A stretch of DNA of 64,000 nucleotides from Acidovorax sp. 107. Lineage in GTDB: Bacteria; Pseudomonadota; Gammaproteobacteria; Burkholderiales; Burkholderiaceae_C. The stretch covers positions 2,684,001-2,748,000 of the forward strand of contig NZ_QBTZ01000001.1 of assembly GCF_003058055.1 (NCBI RefSeq), read 5' to 3'. Shown piece after piece: positions 1,137-60,318 of this stretch; the first letter of the stretch is position 1; every line of letters begins with the position of its first letter. The notes beneath the pieces were generated by a model, which had not been told where the DNA came from, did no database searches, and worked only from the letters and a program-made list of their open reading frames with translations. The translations under genes were made by a program, and so were the position numbers.

Positions 1137-1269
1137 GCCTCACGCCGATTTCGCGGGCCCCTGCAAGCGGCAGCCGTCGCTGCAAGCCAACTTCTGCCCT
1201 TGGTTGAGCGCAGCGGCCGCCTCACAGGTGCGGGAGCAGGCCGCAGTGCCCTGGCCCCGCATTCAATCA

Positions 1270-1316
1270 CTATCTTTTTGATAGCTATCAGCGCATGAAT
1301 TACCTGCGCTTGAGGC
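1270..1316 (-). repeat. 47-bp dispersed repeat, copy 1
   Basis: Read on the minus strand it begins GCCTCAAGCGCAGG and ends GCTATCAAAAAGATAG, matching the other seven 47-bp copies in this window. It lies between the XRE gene (ends 1136) and the TetR operator. The surrounding 1137-1381 stretch otherwise shows no coding or RNA feature. Confidence 0.8.
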
Positions 1317-1381
1317 TAAAAACGCCTCAAAACCCCTGCTTGCGCCTGCCAAGAGGTGGCTTGACGCGACAAAGAGAAATA

Positions 1382-4763: not shown

Positions 4764-5216
4764 ATGGCCCGCAAAGCACTTGCCGCTGTGTCCATCGCCC
4801 TGCTGTCGCTGGGCGCCGCAAGCGCGGCGCAGGCGCAGACCAGCGCCACCGTCGTCATCCAGGCTGGCACGCCCGTCTATCAGCAACCCGCTCCGGTGCT
4901 CGTGCAGTACCAGGCACCGCCCCCACCCCGCTACGAGGTGGCGCCCCACCCGCGCCGCGGCATGGTGTGGGTGCCCGGCCACTGGGAGTGGCGCGGCCAC
5001 CGCCATGTGTGGATGCAGGGCTACTGGGTGAAGGCCCGCCCGGGCTATCACTACCGCGAGCCCCGCTGGGTCGAGAAAGGCGGCCGCTGGGACATGCAGG
5101 GCGGCGGCTGGGACCGCGATGGCGACGGTGTACCGAACCGCCACGACCGTGACCGCGACGGAGACGGCGTGCCCAACCGCTATGACCAGCGCCCGGACAA
5201 CCCGTACCGCCGCTAA
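4764..5216 (+). CDS. Secreted WXXGXW-repeat protein with Asp-rich tail (paralogue 1)
   Basis: The 150-residue protein has a signal peptide (MARKALAAVSIALLSLGAAS, cut near AQA-Q). The middle holds WVPGHWEWRGHRHVWMQGYW and a second W-x-x-G-x-W-like unit, as in BcpO-related WXXGXW proteins. The tail repeats DRDGDGVPNR twice, like thrombospondin type-3 calcium loops. The start at 4764 follows TGAGGAGA at 4751-4758; an upstream in-frame ATG at 4719 would spoil the signal peptide. A close paralogue begins 195 bases downstream. An exported, possibly calcium-binding or envelope-associated role is inferred; the true function is unknown. Confidence 0.8.
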   Translation: MARKALAAVSIALLSLGAASAAQAQTSATVVIQAGTPVYQQPAPVLVQYQAPPPPRYEVAPHPRRGMVWVPGHWEWRGHRHVWMQGYWVKARPGYHYREPRWVEKGGRWDMQGGGWDRDGDGVPNRHDRDRDGDGVPNRYDQRPDNPYRR

Positions 5217-5411: not shown

Positions 5412-5855
5412 ATGACCACCACTTCCCTTTTTAGCCAGACCCTCACCGCCTCGGCACTCGCCCTGGCGGCCCTGCTGGGCACCACCGCCCCGGCACAGGC
5501 ACAGGTTGCCACCCAGACCACCGTCATCGTGCAGCCGGGCGTCGTCATCCCGGCTCCGCCACCGCCCCGCCGCGAGGCCGTCCCGCACGCCCGCAGGGGC
5601 CAGGTGTGGGTGCCCGGGTACTGGGACTGGCGGGGCCACCGCCACGTATGGGTGCAAGGCCACTTTGAAAAAGTACGGCCCGGCTACCGCTACCGTGCCC
5701 CTCAGTGGGACCAGCGCGATGGTCGCTGGGAGCTGCACCGGGGTGGCTGGGACCGCGACGGCGATGGCATCGTCAACCGCAACGACCGGGACCGCGATGG
5801 CGACGGCGTGCCCAACCGCCGCGACCACCAGCCTGACAATCCGCGCCGCAACTGA
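5412..5855 (+). CDS. Secreted WXXGXW-repeat protein with Asp-rich tail (paralogue 2)
   Basis: The 147-residue protein is built like its neighbour: a signal peptide ending near APAQAQ, a Pro-rich linker (PAPPPPRREAVPHARRG), the block WVPGYWDWRGHRHVWVQGHF, and two Asp/Gly/Asn repeats (DRDGDGIVNR, DRDGDGVPNR). AGGAG lies eight bases before the ATG. Strong identity over the middle and tail but divergent signal peptides show an old tandem duplication. The 195 bases between the two genes hold no further ORF I would support. Function unknown; export and metal binding are inferred from the motifs. Confidence 0.8.
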   Translation: MTTTSLFSQTLTASALALAALLGTTAPAQAQVATQTTVIVQPGVVIPAPPPPRREAVPHARRGQVWVPGYWDWRGHRHVWVQGHFEKVRPGYRYRAPQWDQRDGRWELHRGGWDRDGDGIVNRNDRDRDGDGVPNRRDHQPDNPRRN

Positions 5856-6828: not shown

Positions 6829-7018
6829 GGAGAGCACGGCAGCCACCGGCCGCCGCTGCACCGAAGGCGCAAACTCCCATACACGCTCAGGTCCCGTACT
6901 GCACCATTCATCAAAGCCGTCTGGAGAGCCGCCTCGCGCAACGCGAAGCGCACCGAAGGAGCAAGCCGCAGCCCGGGTGGGTAGCGGTGAATCTCTCAGG
7001 TACCAAGGACAGGGGGAG
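6829..7018 (+). promoter_or_regulatory. Tandem glycine riboswitch (gcvT-type, two aptamers)
   Basis: Two glycine-aptamer signatures occur in a row. The first opens with GGAGAG at 6829, has CACCGAAGGCGCAAA and closes with the short CTCAGGTCCCGTACTG block. The second opens with GGAGAG at 6922, has CACCGAAGGAGCAAG, and closes with AATCTCTCAGGTACCAAGGA followed by CAGGGGG near 7016. Such tandem arrangements sense glycine. The next gene, 100 bases downstream, is a D-amino-acid dehydrogenase rather than the usual gcvTHP. A 47-bp repeat occupies much of the space where an expression platform would be. Confidence 0.92.
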
Positions 7019-7051
7019 CGGCAGCTAGGGCATTCATGCGCCAGCTGCACG

Positions 7052-7098
7052 CTATTTAATTCATAGCTGCAAGCGCATATTGTTCTAGCGCCAGAGCC
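7052..7098 (-). repeat. 47-bp dispersed repeat, copy 2 (in the riboswitch leader)
   Basis: On the minus strand it begins GGCTCTGGCGCTAG and ends GCTATGAATTAAATAG, aligning without gaps to the family. It lies between the second glycine aptamer and the dadA ribosome-binding site, so it is transcribed as part of the leader. Confidence 0.8.
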
Positions 7099-7117
7099 CA
7101 GAAAGGCTTTGAAAATC

Positions 7118-15287: not shown

Positions 15288-15773
15288 TCAGTGTTTATGC
15301 CCATCCATCATGCTGCCTGCCGTGGCGCCGCCGGGCGCCGAGGTGCCCACCGGCACTGTCAGGTTCAGCTTGCTTTCCACGCCCTTGGCATCCTGGAACA
15401 CCAGGGTGATCGGCACCGAACTGTCCTTGGCCAAAGGCGCCTTCAGGTCCAGCAGCATGACGTGGTAGCCGCCGGGCTTGAGTTCCACCGTCTTGCCTGC
15501 CGGCAGGTCCAGCGTGGGCACGGCGCGCATCTTCATGATGTCGCCTTCCATCTTCATCTCGTGCACTTCGGTAAGGCCGGCCGCAGGCGACTCGGCACGC
15601 ACCAGGCGGGCACCGTCCTTGGCCGTGAGGCGCATGAACGCGCCCGTGGCCTTCTGGCCCTGCACGCTGGCGCGTGCCCAGGCGCCTTCGACCTTGACGG
15701 GTGCTGTCTGTGCCCATGCGGGGGTGCCGAGCAGTGCGGCAACGACGGCAGCGGTGTGGAGCAGTTTTTTCAT
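15288..15773 (-). CDS. Periplasmic copper chaperone PCu(A)C
   Basis: The 161-residue exported protein has a signal peptide (MKKLLHTAAVVAALLGTPAW). The PCuAC copper motif H-x-M ... M ... H-x-M is present: EVHEMKMEGDIMKMR followed by GGYHVMLLDL. It carries Cu(I) in the periplasm, usually delivering to cytochrome oxidase or storing copper. The C-terminal end is His-rich (DGHKH). The ATG at 15773 gives a clean signal peptide; a longer in-frame start would prepend a non-signal sequence. It is the last gene of a cluster containing a YcnI-like protein and a TonB receptor, supporting a copper-uptake role. Confidence 0.9.
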   Translation of the reverse strand: MKKLLHTAAVVAALLGTPAWAQTAPVKVEGAWARASVQGQKATGAFMRLTAKDGARLVRAESPAAGLTEVHEMKMEGDIMKMRAVPTLDLPAGKTVELKPGGYHVMLLDLKAPLAKDSSVPITLVFQDAKGVESKLNLTVPVGTSAPGGATAGSMMDGHKH

Positions 15774-15829: not shown

Positions 15830-16390
15830 TCAATGATTGTGCGCAGCGGCGCCACCGGTGGGCAGAATCTCCAGCGCGGCCGCAGGGGACTTCAGGTCCG
15901 ACAGTTTCTGTCCCGCCGTCGGCACCTCGGTCCAGTCGTTGCGGCCCTCGGTGCAGACCTGGCGCACCGGCCAGTACACAGTGCCGGCCTGCTCGGGCGC
16001 TTGAGCGACCAGCACAAACTCGTCGTAATGGGCGCTCTGCAGCATGTCGTCCGGCGTCTTGGCTGTCCAGGTGATGCGCACCACGTCTTCGGTGATGCTG
16101 CGGCCGTGGCTGGTGTACGGCTGGGCCAGTTTGTCGCGCTGCACGTCGAGCGTCCAGCCCGGCTTGGGCATGGGGCGCGCGCCGCGCATGCCTGCGGGGA
16201 TGTCCACCACCACCTGCCGCGTGGGCGCCGCGCCGCAGCCATGGCCCACCTTGAAGGCGGCCTTGTAGCTAGCGCCAGCCGGGGCCACCTGGTATTCGAG
16301 CACCACATGGGCAGATGCAGGTACCAACAGGCCGCAAGTGCCAGTCAGCAATACGGCAGCAGCTATCCTTTTTATAGTATTCAGAGACAT
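15830..16390 (-). CDS. YcnI/DUF1775-family exported copper-associated protein
   Basis: The 186-residue exported protein has a signal peptide (MSLNTIKRIAAAVLLTGTCG, cut near PASA-H) and a DUF1775/YcnI domain starting with the mature N-terminal histidine HVVLEYQVAPAG. In family members this histidine, with a tryptophan, binds copper. The ATG at 16390 follows AAGGAAAA; an upstream TTG at 16408 is unlikely. Residues 6-20 of the signal peptide are encoded by a copy of the 47-bp repeat (16331-16377). It lies between the TonB receptor and PCuAC. Confidence 0.85.
   Translation of the reverse strand: MSLNTIKRIAAAVLLTGTCGLLVPASAHVVLEYQVAPAGASYKAAFKVGHGCGAAPTRQVVVDIPAGMRGARPMPKPGWTLDVQRDKLAQPYTSHGRSITEDVVRITWTAKTPDDMLQSAHYDEFVLVAQAPEQAGTVYWPVRQVCTEGRNDWTEVPTAGQKLSDLKSPAAALEILPTGGAAAHNH
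16331..16377 (+). repeat. 47-bp dispersed repeat, copy 3 (inside the YcnI-like signal peptide)
   Basis: On the plus strand it starts GCCGCAAGTGCCAGTCAGCA and ends GCTATCCTTTTTATAG. The reverse complement is in frame with the YcnI-like gene and supplies codons 6-20, giving IKRIAAAVLLTGTCG. One of two copies lying within coding sequence. Confidence 0.8.
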
Positions 16391-16404
16391 GGGATGTTTT
16401 CCTT

Positions 16405-18735
16405 TCAAAGGGAGACCTTCAACTCAGCCATGTAGCTGCGCTGTGGGTAGGGGTGGAAGTTCCAGAACTGGTAGTTGTTGAGGTTGTCGATGCCCATGGC
16501 GACGCTGACCGCTTTGGTGATCTGGTAGCGCACGCGCACATCGGTGGTGAAGTAGCGGCTCGCGCCCTGGTAGGCAAAACCGTTGGGATCGCTGTTGTCG
16601 AGCGTGCTGTATTGCTTGCCGCTGTAGCGCGCGCCCAGGGTGTACGACCATTTGTCATCGGGCCGGTAGGTGGCCACGGCAGTGGCGCGCCACTCGGGGA
16701 TGCGCGGCTGCCATTGGCCGACGCTGGCGGGGAACTTGTCGTTGCGCGTGATCTTGGAATCCGTCCAGGTCAGGCTGCTGCCCAGCTCCAGCCCGCGCAC
16801 GAAGACGTTGGTGGCCTGGTACGCCAGCTCGATGCCCTTGGTACGAATCGCGTCCACGTTCTGCACATTGGTGACGTTGGGGGTGACGAGCACATTGGTC
16901 TGCGAGTACAGCGCGTCTTTGGTGCGCTCAAAAAAAGCCGTCAGGCGCAGCAAACCGTTGCCCATGTCGCGCTCCGCTGTCAGCTCGGTGGTCCAGCTCT
17001 TTTCGGGCCGCAGGTTGGGGTCGTTGTTGATGAGCGTGCCGCTGCCGCTGATGCCGCCCTGGTACAGCTCGGCCACGGTGGGCATGCGCACGGCGCGGCC
17101 GGTGGAGGCCTTGAGCACCCACAGATCATTGGCCTGGTAGGCCACCGCAGCCTTGGGTGAGAAGTAGGTCTCGTTGCGCTCAGGGTGGTTCACCGTGGTG
17201 GTGGCGTTGCCCGTCTGGCCGTTGCTGGCACTCCAGCGCTCGGCGCGGGCGCCCAGTACGGCCTTCCATTGGGGTGCGATCTTCCAGGTGTCTTGCGCCC
17301 ACAGGCCCAGCAGTTGTGTGTCGCCATTGAAGGCCTGGTTGCGGGCGCCCGAAGCGCCGTTGATCCAGTTGCTGGTGGCGTTCTCCACCGTGCGCAGCTG
17401 GTAGCTGTCGCGCTGCAGGCCAAAGTCCACGATGTGCGCGCCCAACACGCCATCCGGCCGCCAGGTGCCCTTGGCAGCCAGCGTGTTCCAGCCCGTGCCC
17501 TTGCTGTTGACGATGCGCCCTGCCCCGCCGTTCATCGCCGCAGGCAGCGCCACCGTGGCGGCGCGCAGGGTGTCGGTCTGGTAGTCATACAGGCTGGCGG
17601 CCACTTCCCAGTCGAACGCGCCCTTGGTATTGCTCTTGACCGACAGGCCGTGCATGAAATGCGTGAGGTCTTCGTTGGAAACGTTGAAGTCGGTGGGCGC
17701 GAGCGTATACGAACGGCCGTTGATGTTGACCGTGCCCGCGTACACCGCATTGCCATTGGCATCGCGCAGGTAGCTGGCAGGGCGGCCTTCGGATTCGTTG
17801 TGCCACCAGCCGAAGGTGTACGCGGCCCGCACGGTGGGCGAGAAGTCGTAGGCGATCTTGGCCTTGATGTGGTCTTGCTGCGTGTGGTACTGCGTGGCGG
17901 TGCCCAACAGGTACCAGGGCTGGTTGCTGCGGTTGTTGCCCAGCACAGCGCCCGTCACGGGTGTGCCTGCACTGCCCACAGTGCCTGCGGACACCAGGCG
18001 CGTTGGGAAGGTGAGCGGCTGGCCTTCGCTGTCGGTCTTGTTGAAGTTAAGGAACCAGGACCAGTCACCGTTCTTGTTGCCCACCGATGCGCTGACTTGC
18101 TTGCCTCCGTAGGTGCCGCTGGTGTTGTACAGGTCGAACGGCTGGTGCTGGTAGCTGACCTGCCCGTGCGCCTCGAACTTCGTCGGCATGCGCGTGACGT
18201 AGTCCACCACTGCGCCCACCGAGTTGCCCGCGTACGCTGCAGAGAAGGGCCCGTAGAGCACGTCCACCCGCTCGATCTCCTCGGGCGTAACCAGCATCCA
18301 GCGCGGCGCGTTGGTGGGGCCGTTGCCCAGGTAGTTGCTCAGCAAGATGCCGTCGGCAAACACCATGGACCGCGCCGGGTTGCCGGTGCCCGAAGCGCGG
18401 GTGGACAGCACGGCGTGGTTGTAGTCGCCGATGTAGCGCTTGCGCACCAGCAGGCTGGGCAGGTACTTGAGGGCGTCTTCGCTGTCGGTGGCATTGATCG
18501 CATGCTCGATCTGCTCGCGCGTCACGCCCTCGATGGTGGTGGGTATCTGCGTGGGCAGCGAGGTCGGCTGGCCACCGCTGATGGTGACCACGCCCAGCTC
18601 CTTGACCGGGGCATTGGAGCTGGCAGGGACGCTGTCGGTGGTCTGTGCGAATGCGGGCACGGCCCCGGTGACCGTGAAGGTAAGGACGAGGGGAAAGGCA
18701 CTGGCCACGGCCAGCGCCATGCGGCTTTTGCGCAT
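16405..18735 (-). CDS. TonB-dependent outer-membrane receptor, probably for copper
   Basis: The 776-residue protein has a signal peptide at 1-30 (ends AFAQ), a plug domain at about 45-190 (GVVTISGG as TonB box region, EDALKYLPSLLVRKR, IERVDVLYGPFSAAYAGNSV), and a beta-barrel to the end, closing with a terminal aromatic strand (RSYMAELKVSL). GGAG lies eight bases before the ATG. Its place between a DUF2946 gene and YcnI/PCuAC copper genes argues for a copper or copper-complex substrate, as with OprC/NosA relatives; this is inferred from context. The internal WXXW/Met content was not scored. Confidence 0.9.
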   Translation of the reverse strand: MRKSRMALAVASAFPLVLTFTVTGAVPAFAQTTDSVPASSNAPVKELGVVTISGGQPTSLPTQIPTTIEGVTREQIEHAINATDSEDALKYLPSLLVRKRYIGDYNHAVLSTRASGTGNPARSMVFADGILLSNYLGNGPTNAPRWMLVTPEEIERVDVLYGPFSAAYAGNSVGAVVDYVTRMPTKFEAHGQVSYQHQPFDLYNTSGTYGGKQVSASVGNKNGDWSWFLNFNKTDSEGQPLTFPTRLVSAGTVGSAGTPVTGAVLGNNRSNQPWYLLGTATQYHTQQDHIKAKIAYDFSPTVRAAYTFGWWHNESEGRPASYLRDANGNAVYAGTVNINGRSYTLAPTDFNVSNEDLTHFMHGLSVKSNTKGAFDWEVAASLYDYQTDTLRAATVALPAAMNGGAGRIVNSKGTGWNTLAAKGTWRPDGVLGAHIVDFGLQRDSYQLRTVENATSNWINGASGARNQAFNGDTQLLGLWAQDTWKIAPQWKAVLGARAERWSASNGQTGNATTTVNHPERNETYFSPKAAVAYQANDLWVLKASTGRAVRMPTVAELYQGGISGSGTLINNDPNLRPEKSWTTELTAERDMGNGLLRLTAFFERTKDALYSQTNVLVTPNVTNVQNVDAIRTKGIELAYQATNVFVRGLELGSSLTWTDSKITRNDKFPASVGQWQPRIPEWRATAVATYRPDDKWSYTLGARYSGKQYSTLDNSDPNGFAYQGASRYFTTDVRVRYQITKAVSVAMGIDNLNNYQFWNFHPYPQRSYMAELKVSL

Positions 18736-18763
18736 AGGGACTCCTGAAAATCAAGCCAAATAG

Positions 18764-18810
18764 GCCGCAAGCGCAGGTGAACAATGCGCAAGCAGCTATC
18801 GAATCAATAG
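18764..18810 (+). repeat. 47-bp dispersed repeat, copy 4
   Basis: It begins GCCGCAAGCGCAGGTGAACA and ends GCTATCGAATCAATAG. It fills the gap between the DUF2946 stop (18816) and the TonB-receptor start (18735) and would be transcribed in the copper operon mRNA. Confidence 0.85.
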
Positions 18811-18815
18811 CGATT

Positions 18816-43461: not shown

Positions 43462-44307
43462 ATGACCTCCTCCGCTTCCGCCGCAGCAAATTCCCAACTC
43501 CCCACCATCGCCTTCATTGGCGGCGGCAACATGGCCAGCGCCATCATTGGCGGGCTGATCCGCCAGGGCCACCCGGCCAGCCAGATCGAGGTGGTTGAGC
43601 CCTACGCCCCCACGCGCGAGGCGCTGCTCAAGAATTTCGGCCTCACGGCACAACCCGACGCAGGCCCCGCGCTGCTGCGCGCCAGCATCGTGGTCTGGGC
43701 GGTCAAGCCCCAGACCTTCAAGGACGCCGCCGTACAGGCCAAGGCGCACACCCACCAGGCCCTGCACCTGAGCGTGGCCGCAGGCATTCGCTCGGACAGC
43801 ATCGCCCAGTGGCTGGGCACCGAGCGCATCGTGCGCACCATGCCCAACACGCCCGCGCTGGTGGGCAAGGGCATGAGCGCGATCTACGCGCGCCCCGCCG
43901 TAACCAGCGCCGAGCGCCAGAGCGTGGAAGCCATCATGACGTCCACCGGCGAATTCCTATGGGTGGAGAGCGAGACCCAGCTCGACGCAGTCACCGCCCT
44001 GTCGGGCTCGGGCCCGGCCTATGTTTTCTACTTCCTCGAAGCCATGACACGCGCCGGCGTGGGCATGGGCCTGACCGAAGCGCAGGCGCACCAGCTGGCC
44101 GTGGGCACGTTTGTGGGCGCGTCCGAGCTGGCCCGCCGTTCCGACGAATCCCCCGCCGTGCTGCGCGAACGCGTCACCTCCAAGGGCGGCACGACCTACG
44201 CGGCCTTGCAGTCGATGGAAGCCAGTGGCGTGTCGCAGGCGTTCGAGGCCGCCATGCGCGCTGCCGAAAAACGCGCCAACGAATTGGGCAACGAGTTCGG
44301 ATCTTGA
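43462..44307 (+). CDS. proC: Pyrroline-5-carboxylate reductase
   Basis: The 281-residue NAD(P)H enzyme makes L-proline from pyrroline-5-carboxylate in the last step of proline synthesis. The nucleotide motif IAFIGGGNMASAIIGG starts at about residue 16, and the C-terminal helical dimer domain has VTALSGSGPAYVFYFLEAMT and GVTSKGGTT-type motif (RVTSKGGTTYAALQ). A 15-residue Ser/Ala start precedes the fold. It is followed after nine bases by a 47-bp repeat, then the convergent ubiA gene. Confidence 0.95.
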   Translation: MTSSASAAANSQLPTIAFIGGGNMASAIIGGLIRQGHPASQIEVVEPYAPTREALLKNFGLTAQPDAGPALLRASIVVWAVKPQTFKDAAVQAKAHTHQALHLSVAAGIRSDSIAQWLGTERIVRTMPNTPALVGKGMSAIYARPAVTSAERQSVEAIMTSTGEFLWVESETQLDAVTALSGSGPAYVFYFLEAMTRAGVGMGLTEAQAHQLAVGTFVGASELARRSDESPAVLRERVTSKGGTTYAALQSMEASGVSQAFEAAMRAAEKRANELGNEFGS

Positions 44308-44315
44308 TGTTTTTG

Positions 44316-44362
44316 GGCGGTAGCGCCAGTCGATAAAGCACTAGCTGCTATTAATTTGTGAG
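44316..44362 (+). repeat. 47-bp dispersed repeat, copy 5
   Basis: It begins GGCGGTAGCGCCAGTCGATA and ends GCTATTAATTTGTGAG, nine bases after proC. The ubiA stop codon (44351-44353) and its last codons lie inside it. Copy 6 lies 152 bases away in the opposite orientation. Confidence 0.75.
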
Positions 44363-45244
44363 TGCCGCCCGCACGAGGTAACTGCCCGCAATGCCCGCAA
44401 ACACCGTGGCGCCCAGCCAGTGGTTGATGCGGAACGCCTTGAAGCAGCCCTCTCGGGTGCGGGTGCGGATGAGCGTGAAGTGCCACACGGCCTGGGCCAG
44501 CGCCGCCGCAAGCGCTACATAAAAAATAGCACCCAGGGCATACGGTTGTAGCACTACCGCCCAAATTCCCAAGAAAAGCAGATAGAACACCACGATGGCG
44601 GCCACATCCAGCCGCCCCAGGGTGATGGCCGAGGTCTTGATGCCGATCTTGAGGTCATCGTCGCGGTCCACCATGGCGTATTCGGTGTCATAGGCCAGCA
44701 CCCAGAACAGGTTGCCCAGCCACATCCACCACGCCACCGCCGGCACGCTGCCCTGCACGGCAGCAAACGCGATGACGATGCCAAAGTTGAACGCAATGCC
44801 CAGCACCGCCTGGGGCATGGAAATGAGGCGCTTGGTGAACGGATAGGCAATGGCCACCAGCACGGCGGGCAACGACCACGCGATGGCGGCGGCGCTGGTG
44901 GTGAGCACCAGACTAAACGACACCAGCGCCAGCACCGCGCCCAGGCCCAGTGCCTCCTTCACGCTCACAGCACCCGTGGTCACGGGCCGCTGCGCGGTGC
45001 GCTTGACGTGCTTGTCAAAGTCGCGGTCGGCCACATCGTTCACGCAGCAGCCCGCGCTGCGCATGAGGATGGTGCCCAACACAAACACCGCCAGCAAATG
45101 CCAGCCCGGAAACCCGTCGGCCGCGATCCAGAGCGCGCTCAGCGTGGGCCACAGGCACACCAGCCAGCCGGCAGGGCGGTCCCAGCGGATCAGGTCGAGG
45201 TAGAGCGAAAGGCGGCTGCGGGGGGCTGTGGTGGTGGCGGTCAT
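44351..45244 (-). CDS. ubiA: 4-hydroxybenzoate octaprenyltransferase
   Basis: The 297-residue inner-membrane prenyltransferase of ubiquinone synthesis has about eight helices. The first aspartate motif [19 protein letters not shown] (near 73) and the second [20 protein letters not shown] (near 195) bind the magnesium-diphosphate substrate. The C-terminal part near residues 228-244 ([17 protein letters not shown]) is encoded within a 47-bp repeat copy, and the stop codon lies within another. ATG 45244 was chosen; an in-frame ATG at 45292 is possible. It is downstream of dps but separated by a terminator. Confidence 0.95.
44515..44561 (-). repeat. 47-bp dispersed repeat, copy 6 (inside ubiA)
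   Basis: On the minus strand it begins GGCGGTAGTGCTACAACCGT and ends GCTATTTTTTATGTAG. It is the most diverged copy but keeps the length exactly. It lies in frame within ubiA, giving helix residues about 228-244. Confidence is lower because the match is partly AT/GC simple. Confidence 0.6.
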
Positions 45245-54743: not shown

Positions 54744-55645
54744 GCCCCCCAGGCCCTGCGTTGTCGACCACCCCTGCGGCCCGCCGGCGTGCGGCGCTGG
54801 CAGGCATCGCGCTGGCCGTGGTGGCCTGCGCGTTCTTTGCGCTGCTGGACACCGCCAGCAAGCTGGTCAGCGCGGGCGTGCCCATCGTCATGGCGCTGTG
54901 GATGCGCTATGTGTTCCAGTCGCTGCTGACCACGGCCTTTGTGCTGCAGCGCGCGGGGCGCTCTGCGCTGCGCACCACACAACCCCGCTTCCAGGCCCTG
55001 CGCGGTGCGCTGTTCGCCATGACCAGCCTGTTCGGCTTCATCAGCCTCACGGCCCTGCCGCTGGCAGAGTTCACGGCCATCGTGGCGACGGTGCCGCTGT
55101 GCGTGACGGTGGTGGCTGCCCTGTGGCTGCACCAGCCCGTGAGCCCTTTGCGCTGGCTGCTGGCGGTGGCTGGCCTGGCGGGCACGCTCGCCATCATCCG
55201 ACCCGGCGGCGAGGCCTTTACCTGGGCGCTGCTGTGGCCGCTGTGCATGCTAGCAGCGGGCACGGGCTACCAGGTACTCAGCAGCAAGATGGCCGGGCAC
55301 GAGAGCCCCGCCACCACGCAGCTCTACACCAGCTGGATCGCCACCGCGCTGGTGTCGCTGGGCGTGCCGTTCTTCTGGCAGCCGGTGAGCGACCCGTGGA
55401 TGTGGGCGGGCATGTTCACCATGGGTCTGTCGAGCGCGGTGGGCCACATGCTGCTGCTCAACGCCTATGCGCGCACCACGCCGGTGACGATTGCGCCGTT
55501 TCTGTATTCACAGATCGGGTTTGCCATGCTGGCGGGCTGGCTGGTGTACCGCCATGTGCCGGACGCATGGTCGCTGGCGGGCATGGCGGCCATCGTGCTC
55601 AGCGGCGCAGCCAGCGCCTGGCTGACCGTGCGCGAGACACGTTAA
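54740..55645 (+). CDS. EamA-family (DMT) transporter
   Basis: The 301-residue membrane protein has ten helices in two EamA repeats ([20 protein letters not shown] first; [20 protein letters not shown] second; [20 protein letters not shown] last). DMT exporters move metabolites such as amino acids or nucleosides; the substrate cannot be told. The GTG at 54740 overlaps the queA stop (GTGA), so the pair is coupled, though a functional link is not obvious. Confidence 0.87.
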
Positions 55646-55656
55646 GCATCAAAACA

Positions 55657-55703
55657 GCCGATAGCGCTGGTGCAATATGCCTGAGCAGCTATCCATTCAA
55701 TAG
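55657..55703 (+). repeat. 47-bp dispersed repeat, copy 7
   Basis: It begins GCCGATAGCGCTGGTGCAAT and ends GCTATCCATTCAATAG. It lies between the EamA gene (ends 55645) and the convergent gamma-glutamyltransferase gene (ends 55730). Confidence 0.85.
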
Positions 55704-55729
55704 CACCACACTCGCCATCTGAGGATGGA

Positions 55730-59531: not shown

Positions 59532-60248
59532 TCAGTAGCCGTGCTGCTGGCGGAAATCCCGCGCCTGGCTGAAATGCCCGTTGCCGATGAAAGGCACGGG
59601 CGGGCGCAGTGCCGACAGGGGCGAGGGGTGGTTGGATGTGAGCACCAGGTGCCCCCGATCGGTGGGAATCCACGCGCGCTTGGATTGGGCATGCGAGCCC
59701 CAGAGCATGAACACCACCGGGCGCGGCCCCTCGGCCACGTGGCGGATGACGGTGTCTGTCAGCTCCTCCCAGCCCTTGCCTGCATGGCTGGCGGCCTGGC
59801 CCTCTTCCACCGTGAGGCAGGTGTTGAGCAGCAGCACGCCGTTTTTGGCCCACTTGACCAGACTGCCGCCCGGGTTCGGGAAGGGGGGGAAAGCCACTCC
59901 CAGGTCGCGTTGCATCTCTTTGAAGATGTTCTGCAGCGAGGGCGGCAGGCGCACGCCCGGTGCGACGGAAAACGCCAGCCCCTCGGCCTGGCCCCGGCCG
60001 TGGTACGGGTCCTGTCCCAGGATGACCACGCGCACCTCCTCGGGCGGCGTCAGCTCCAGCGCGCGCAGCGGCTGGGGCGGAAAAATCGCCGCCCCCGCCT
60101 GCAACCGTGCCTGCAAAAACGCGAGCAACGCCTGCCCGCGCGCACCGGCAAAAAACGCATCCACCAAGGACTGCCAGCCAGGGGCCACCGGCCAGTCGGC
60201 GGGTTGGGCCGTCTGGAGTTGCGTGGCGGGCATTTCAGAGGGATTCAT
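59532..60248 (-). CDS. ung: Uracil-DNA glycosylase
   Basis: The 238-residue family-1 enzyme removes uracil from DNA. The catalytic block [20 protein letters not shown] carries the general-base Asp and His context, with [20 protein letters not shown] in the middle and [20 protein letters not shown] (HPSPLS DNA-intercalation loop) at the end. It follows trpC on the same strand, with a 47-bp repeat between them. Convergent with the LysR gene. Confidence 0.96.
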
Positions 60249-60258
60249 GGCGAAATGA

Positions 60259-60305
60259 GCTGGTAGCGCAGGTGAGATATGCGCCAGCAGCTATCAAAAA
60301 CATAG
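60259..60305 (+). repeat. 47-bp dispersed repeat, copy 8
   Basis: It begins GCTGGTAGCGCAGGTGAGAT and ends GCTATCAAAAACATAG. It fills the gap between trpC (stop 60319) and the ung start (60248). Confidence 0.85.
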
Positions 60306-60318
60306 TGATCGATCACTG

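Follow-up and report, generated by a model that had tools for sequence, protein, structure and literature searches.

A short interspersed repeat of Acidovorax as the probable source of the signal peptide of a YcnI-like protein, and its recurrence in other exported families

Signal peptides diverge fast, and their origin and turnover are poorly known. That repeated DNA can give rise to them has already been reported for Yersinia, where an RU-2/YPAL repeat forms part of the signal peptide of YPO1552 (PMC2759123; review PMC2229807), homologues of this protein in other genera have unrelated signal sequences (PMC2759123), and a few more cases, YPO2495 and YE2643 with RU-1f, are on record (PMC2759123; PMC2229807). 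Here, we describe a stretch of 64,000 nucleotides of Acidovorax sp. 107 (contig NZ_QBTZ01000001.1, positions 2,684,001 to 2,748,000; hereafter, the window), in which a copy of an interspersed repeat, ca. 55–60 bp long, stands in frame at the start of a gene for a YcnI-like protein of the copper-binding type (DUF1775 family). As with RU-2 in YPO1552, repeat DNA is read in frame as a signal peptide where relatives have an unrelated one. Unlike RU-2, a 168-bp element reported, in the parts of the sources available to us, from putative exported proteins, the Acidovorax repeat has no conserved fold; its recurrence over at least ten exported families, its use on both strands, its genus-wide conservation and the very short size of the donor repeat are what is new here.

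Three other groups of elements bear comparison. Rickettsia palindromic elements, 105–146 bp long and with long hairpins, have in-frame copies inside conserved genes, and the available parts of the review do not describe export signals as an outcome (PMC2229807). Two unnamed motifs, ATAGCT(N)22CAAAAG of Polaromonas naphthalenivorans (125 copies, mostly intergenic, 18 in genes and 6 over a gene start or end) and GCTTAT(N)5AAGCG of Acidovorax ebreus (114 copies, mostly intergenic), have been listed (PMC5217627), and both are probably variants of the present family; neither a coding role nor signal peptides are mentioned in the accessible parts of that paper. The first motif has one match in 13 Polaromonas loci, within a 37.2-bit copy (locus L161), and is absent from 18 of 19 Polaromonas copies; the second has three matches in an 800-kb sample, at least two of them at strong copies on the opposite strand. 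Finally, BRE is a short repeat of Betaproteobacteria including Comamonadaceae, with some copies within genes, ca. 90 bp long and with 69% GC in Bordetella (PMC3110155); as far as the available text goes, size and GC content alone set it apart from our repeat, whose seven clear copies in the window have matched lengths of 58–69 bp and 41–49% GC. Our literature search found no name for the repeat family, no report of its coding use and no precedent beyond RU-2, the Rickettsia elements, the two motifs and BRE.

The repeat copy in the YcnI-like gene

The features that concern the gene start are as follows.

15830..16390, minus strand: YcnI-like DUF1775 gene, 186 aa (PF07987, E = 3.6e-42)
16310..16390, minus strand: putative signal peptide MSLNTIKRIAAAVLLTGTCGLLVPASA, 27 residues, from the translation, with cleavage before His presumed from the family
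16324..16383, minus strand: repeat copy inside the DUF1775 coding sequence (R1 and weight matrix)
16322..16378, minus strand: codons 5–23 (TIKRIAAAVLLTGTCGLLV) with the charges K7 and R8 and the hydrophobic core, read in repeat frame +0 (GC content of third codon positions 0.44 in codons 5–20, 0.86 in the mature part)
16400..16405, minus strand: AAAGGA, likely ribosome-binding site by sequence, not part of the repeat; it shares bases with the stop codon of the TonB-receptor gene upstream

The product belongs to DUF1775 with a PF07987 score of 144.6 bits against a curated cut-off of 25, and its start codon is the ATG at 16390 on the minus strand. Repeat copies were detected with a sequence model, R1, built from 31 aligned copies of the same genome, and with a weight matrix made from the same alignment; the YcnI copy was excluded from both, and the copies at the SCO1 and glucose/sorbosone dehydrogenase (GSDH) genes of this genome were included. 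R1 matched the YcnI gene at 16326–16383 (32.8 bits, E = 2.4e-9) and the matrix matched it at 16324–16378 (44.7 bits). The best unexplained place of the window reached 3.7 bits with the matrix, and the maximum was 3.9 bits in 40 simulated 64-kb windows and 10.0 bits in 864 kb of reversed sequence. R1 found seven clear matches in the window, of which the YcnI copy is the lowest, and the next match drops to 12.5 bits; five of the seven were training copies, the YcnI copy and the one at 1264–1331 being untrained. The matrix found eight copies. A sequence-only reading of this DNA had described a 47-bp repeat lying in frame within the gene and providing residues 6–20. The presence and the frame are borne out, and the extent has to be revised: 47 bp corresponds to the core of an element of ca. 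55–60 bp, which provides residues 5–23.

The layout outlined in that reading (positive start, hydrophobic core, cleavage near PASA) is that of a Sec signal peptide, recognizable by eye as MSLNTIKR / IAAAVLLTGTCGLLV / ASA. Only the starting MSLN and the cleavage region PASA consist of non-repeat letters. A histidine directly follows PASA in the protein (PASA/HVVLEYQ). Anatomy and conservation point to Sec export of the window protein and to cleavage between ASA and this histidine. In Bacillus YcnI, the N-terminal His ligates Cu(II) through its amine and its side chain, and it is expected to be released by signal-peptide cleavage (PMC8424229, as far as available). By analogy with the family, a working YcnI in Acidovorax would need exact cleavage behind a signal peptide made largely of repeat.

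An alternative is that the repeat is an untranslated leader, with translation starting downstream of it. Some copies directly precede genes, such as the one at 18750–18815, but the AAAGGA-ATG start ahead of the repeat is a good one, initiation downstream of the repeat would deprive the protein of a signal peptide, and no stop interrupts the repeat in any of the 30 genus orthologues examined, while only 51% of 96 sampled copies are stop-free in this frame. We consider this alternative highly unlikely.

The properties of the family as a whole show why a copy can be used in this way. When 96 copies were read in six frames, hydropathy exceeded 1.5 over 12 residues in 21% of them in frame +0 and in 31% in frame -1, compared with 4% of random 48-mers, 5% of shuffled copies and 0–4% in the other four frames. 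Frame +0 reads roughly (M/I)KKIAAxALxxSAxxxF. It puts positive charges ahead of a hydrophobic, Ala-rich run, which enables it to act as a signal peptide, and in some copies Lys codons precede the hydrophobic part. Where one of the bases is a G, the sequence becomes ATG AAA AAN ATA GCT GCT, with a start codon in place. Not every copy is usable, since a stop is present in 49% of the copies in frame +0 and in 38% in frame -1.

DNA ancestry and comparison of orthologues

Starts of the MKKIAA type are typical for signal peptides, and Ala-rich signal peptides could resemble the repeat by chance at the protein level. Convergence was addressed by keeping the peptide, redrawing synonymous codons according to the codon use of the window and rescoring the DNA against the repeat. 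None of 20,000 recodings of the window copy reached its 44.7 bits (maximum 17.3), and the likeness therefore reflects DNA ancestry, not protein convergence. All 26 genus orthologues tested scored above all of their 2,000 recodings each. In the repeat part of the window gene, both Ile codons are ATA and all three Thr codons are ACT, codons that are rare in the long open reading frames (ORFs) of the window (10 of 423 Ile and 18 of 735 Thr, respectively). Among ORF starts of the sample (a filtered set that lacks the window's own gene), 3 of 434 exceeded 12 bits, one of them being that of cyclophilin.

Outside the genus, six of seven repeat-bearing loci tested scored above all 2,000 recodings. The seventh, L146, with 25.8 bits, lies within reach of its recodings (maximum 27.6), and at L137 the peptide is repeat-like and the DNA ordinary (1.5 bits, z 1.7). 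These two loci speak for convergence, though both also fit codon amelioration; three of 30 loci selected by a pattern in other families (see below) point the same way, and the other 27, together with all 59 SCO1 and cyclophilin loci tested, point to DNA ancestry. On balance, convergence is very improbable.

The DUF1775 gene is present in 36 of the 47 genomes of the genus, and in all 36 orthologues the repeat lies 57 nt upstream of the His codon and is read in the same frame, with 23.4–60.3 bits; compared with the window copy, 23 of the other 35 have higher scores and 12 have lower ones. In the 30 examined more closely for stops, the best 12-residue hydropathy is 1.42–2.40. Of 58 loci read outside the genus, the mature start could be placed in 51. 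Twelve of these (L131, L132, L136, L139, L143, L145, L146, L154, L259, L273, L274 and L283) carry a repeat copy that is read in this frame as well and lies 45, 57 or 69 nt upstream of the His codon, with 6.1–38.7 bits. The remaining 39 have no clear repeat and, judged by eye, mostly ordinary unrelated signal peptides, e.g., MNKTLIAGLLALAGTAQA. The copy at L138 sits beyond the signal-peptide core, 99 nt upstream of the His codon, and L265 and L267 have weak upstream matches that are off-frame. When the signal-peptide region of an orthologue served as a protein query, 65 matches were obtained, 64 of them DUF1775 and the remaining one P0042.

Since a full signal peptide of unrelated sequence is present in most repeat-less orthologues, the repeat took the place of an earlier export signal. 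The sequence-only reading had supposed that an intergenic element was captured as coding sequence, creating or replacing an export signal; the recoding tests and the orthologue comparison support the capture and, of its two outcomes, replacing rather than creating. The same nucleotides in genomes lacking the repeat family did not turn up, with repeats counted in a part of the orthologue genomes.

On a tree of the mature domain, the repeat trait needs seven changes, at least three of which are forced by well-supported branches (L138 is labelled as having the repeat, although its copy lies upstream of the core, and L137 and L139 are left out). Several captures of the repeat by YcnI are likely; a single capture with later losses may also account for the pattern.

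We propose, with a probability of roughly 92%, that a repeat copy at the 5′ end of the DUF1775 gene in an ancestor of the genus displaced the n- and h-regions of an older Sec signal peptide. A copy of ca. 55–60 bp would have arrived at the 5′ end of the gene, probably by insertion rather than by copying through recombination, and would have taken the place of these two regions; the start codon, the ribosome-binding site and the cleavage region are not part of the repeat. If cleaved before His, the protein would expose its N-terminal histidine, the Cu(II) ligand of the YcnI family. Weighing against this proposal are the ordinary DNA of L137 and the reachable score of L146, the fact that the export, cleavage and insertion steps are deduced from sequence, and the scattered presence in other genera, which may reflect one capture with losses or several captures.

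The repeat could also have been kept for a role in DNA or RNA (protein binding, mRNA 5′ structure or recombinational homogenization), with the signal peptide as a second use. Synonymous codon identity in YcnI is higher for the repeat part (0.80) than for the mature part (0.74), and the signal peptide of the PCu(A)C gene next to it at the same loci has 0.55; for Ile, 0.95 compares with 0.69. The pairs compared are non-independent, and the PCu(A)C control is not codon-aligned. The effect is small in SCO1 (0.73 against 0.69) and reversed in cyclophilin (0.68 against 0.80). A preference for AT-rich codons is common at gene starts, which counts against such a role, as does the lack of a conserved fold in 31 copies (consensus -0.66 kcal/mol, 2 pairs). 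That this role was what preserved the repeat appears unlikely; a second DNA-level role or homogenization of the YcnI repeat is possible beside its use as a signal peptide.

Recurrence in other exported families

We scanned genome contigs for ATGAAAAANATAGCTGCTNNCGC, which gave 92 stretches, and 80 of these loci were read. They come from Comamonadaceae (Acidovorax, Comamonas, Polaromonas, Rhodoferax, Curvibacter, Xenophilus and Xylophilus), one Rubrivivax and unresolved bins. Of the 80, 26 have a repeat that seems to make up a signal peptide, namely that of DUF1775 (10), M16 peptidase (7), Chalcone_3 (3), SLT (2), a lipoprotein without Pfam match (2), SIMPL (1) and SCO1 (1); four further loci (MlaA, FlgH and two ABC_trans_aux) are ambiguous. 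Pfam was run on three of the seven M16, two of the three Chalcone_3, one of the two SLT and one of the two lipoprotein loci and on all SIMPL, SCO1, MlaA, FlgH and ABC_trans_aux loci; for all others, the ten of DUF1775 among them, the assignment is by likeness. Long ORFs without Pfam match (L194, L212), unscanned ORFs and short ORFs stand outside the count. When rescored only on the bases after the pattern, with the codon table of this genome applied to other genera, 27 of the 30 loci lay beyond 1% of synonymous recodings, L200 (M16), L229 (SCO1) and L223 (FlgH) being those that did not.

Searched with a profile built from these signal peptides, the genome of the window gave four matches with E < 1e-6, to SCO1, YcnI, M16 peptidase and Chalcone_3, of which the SCO1 and YcnI peptides were part of the profile. 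DsbD and cupredoxin were chosen by eye among 30 matches read out of 85, most of the others not being such genes. The M16, Chalcone_3, DsbD and cupredoxin copies of this genome each scored above all 3,000 recodings. On the opposite strand, frame -1 of the repeat forms the signal peptide of a cyclophilin and probably also that of GSDH. Across the genus (47 genomes matched for either gene), SCO1 has a copy in 30 of 30 loci examined and cyclophilin in 29 of 29 placed out of 30 examined; all 59 loci lie above all of their 2,000 recodings each. There are thus ten families (DUF1775, SCO1, M16, Chalcone_3, SLT, SIMPL, DsbD, cupredoxin, cyclophilin and the unnamed lipoprotein), with GSDH as a probable eleventh. 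In an FtsX-like permease gene (L373:148-1545, minus strand), a copy scores 38.7 bits against a maximum of 14.3 in 3,000 recodings and appears, from the sequence, to encode part of a putative membrane segment.

Not every ORF capped by the repeat need gain a signal peptide from it. FlgH (L223), ABC_trans_aux (L185, L235) and MlaA (L219) keep their own hydrophobic core or have another possible start, and there the repeat may be a leader. We claim no export signal for CysN (L024, named from sequence), UbiD (L352), an HD-domain protein (L202) or a methyltransferase (L220).

More tentatively, the repeat may be a portable export-signal cassette, with one frame on each strand, two out of six in all, coding for ready-made Sec signal peptides or membrane helices. 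In Comamonadaceae, it would have replaced signals in at least ten unrelated exported families and contributed to the FtsX-like segment, and would form a standing route of signal-peptide turnover, with its consensus kept by recombination or a second function.

In the Comamonadaceae, bacteria of soil and water, copies of a scattered repeat have time and again come to serve as export tags of secreted proteins unrelated to each other, here apparently of a copper-binding protein. The sequences show donor DNA, frame and recipients directly, and one bacterial family offers many natural replicates; the system shows a route from a non-coding repeat to a part of a protein, and the exaptation can be tested by simple fusion assays. 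It also cautions that repeats in frame at N-termini need not mean annotation errors.

The repeat family and its other copies

A 14-base core is matched exactly at 55 places of the 5.1-Mb genome, against none when it is read backwards, and an R1 search of the genome found at least 150 places. In a sample of 864 kb, made up of the window and 40 stretches of 20 kb at even spacing, scores above 20 bits occur at 96 places, ca. 1 per 9 kb. By a crude codon test, 18 of 105 sampled copies above 15 bits are in a coding frame and 87 are in none. These numbers bear on the reverse descent, that of the repeat family from a signal-peptide gene. YcnI copies of some species, with up to 60.3 bits, are near the consensus, as such a descent would have it, but the host genes are unrelated and lie on both strands, the great majority of sampled copies are in no coding frame by the above test, and YcnI orthologues without the repeat exist, which makes this direction hardly credible. 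The repeat (ca. 55–60 bp, fold -0.66 kcal/mol) does not fit the description of bacterial miniature inverted-repeat transposable elements, which are ca. 100–200 bp long with terminal inverted repeats and a stable hairpin. REP/RAYT elements are palindromes of 20–40 bp with GTAG/CGTC, and some of their families go together with transposase genes; this genome has one Y1_Tnp gene. At gathering cut-offs, Rfam found only one tRNA and one glycine riboswitch within the window.

The genes flanking the DUF1775 gene and the other repeat copies of the window are listed below.

15288..15773, minus strand: PCu(A)C copper chaperone gene (PF04314), 3′ neighbour of the DUF1775 gene
16405..18735, minus strand: TonB-dependent receptor gene (PF00593, PF07715), 5′ neighbour of the DUF1775 gene
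1264..1331, plus strand: repeat copy (R1 34.1 bits)
7046..7112, plus strand: repeat copy (R1 48.4 bits)
18750..18815, minus strand: repeat copy, top-scoring of the window, just 5′ of the TonB-receptor gene, within the leader or promoter region of that gene (R1 62.8 bits)
44306..44368, minus strand: repeat copy (R1 42.5 bits)
44509..44568, plus strand: decayed repeat copy (R1 8.8 bits, E = 0.075; matrix 28.6 bits)
55642..55710, minus strand: repeat copy (R1 51.2 bits)
60246..60312, minus strand: repeat copy (R1 55 bits)

The weight-matrix scan of the window gave no repeat match at the start of the PCu(A)C gene. The copy at 7046–7112 begins within 25 nt of the glycine riboswitch (6911–7022) on the same strand. 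Two direct repeats of 300 nt with 74% identity lie at 4910–5209 and 5549–5848 of the window.

Similarly to the Rickettsia elements, as far as described, the repeat also stands in frame inside conserved genes, namely those of PurL (L120:15615-19694, minus strand, before KVETHNHPTAISP), MoeA (molybdopterin-binding domain, L121:1883-3304, plus strand) and, in other Comamonadaceae, a tRNA ligase (L207, L216 and L222; Anticodon_1 by Pfam in L207), which we take to be of the leucyl (LeuRS) type, and aconitase (L187 and L203; Aconitase_C by Pfam in L187). An in-frame match of 25.9 bits in a conserved GcvP domain (L117:18587, plus strand; also L021) is either an old repeat or a chance likeness. Near 1490–1540 of L003, there is a palindromic form of the repeat (ATAGCTGCTACCGC ... 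GCGGTAGCAGCTAT), perhaps ancestral or dimeric.
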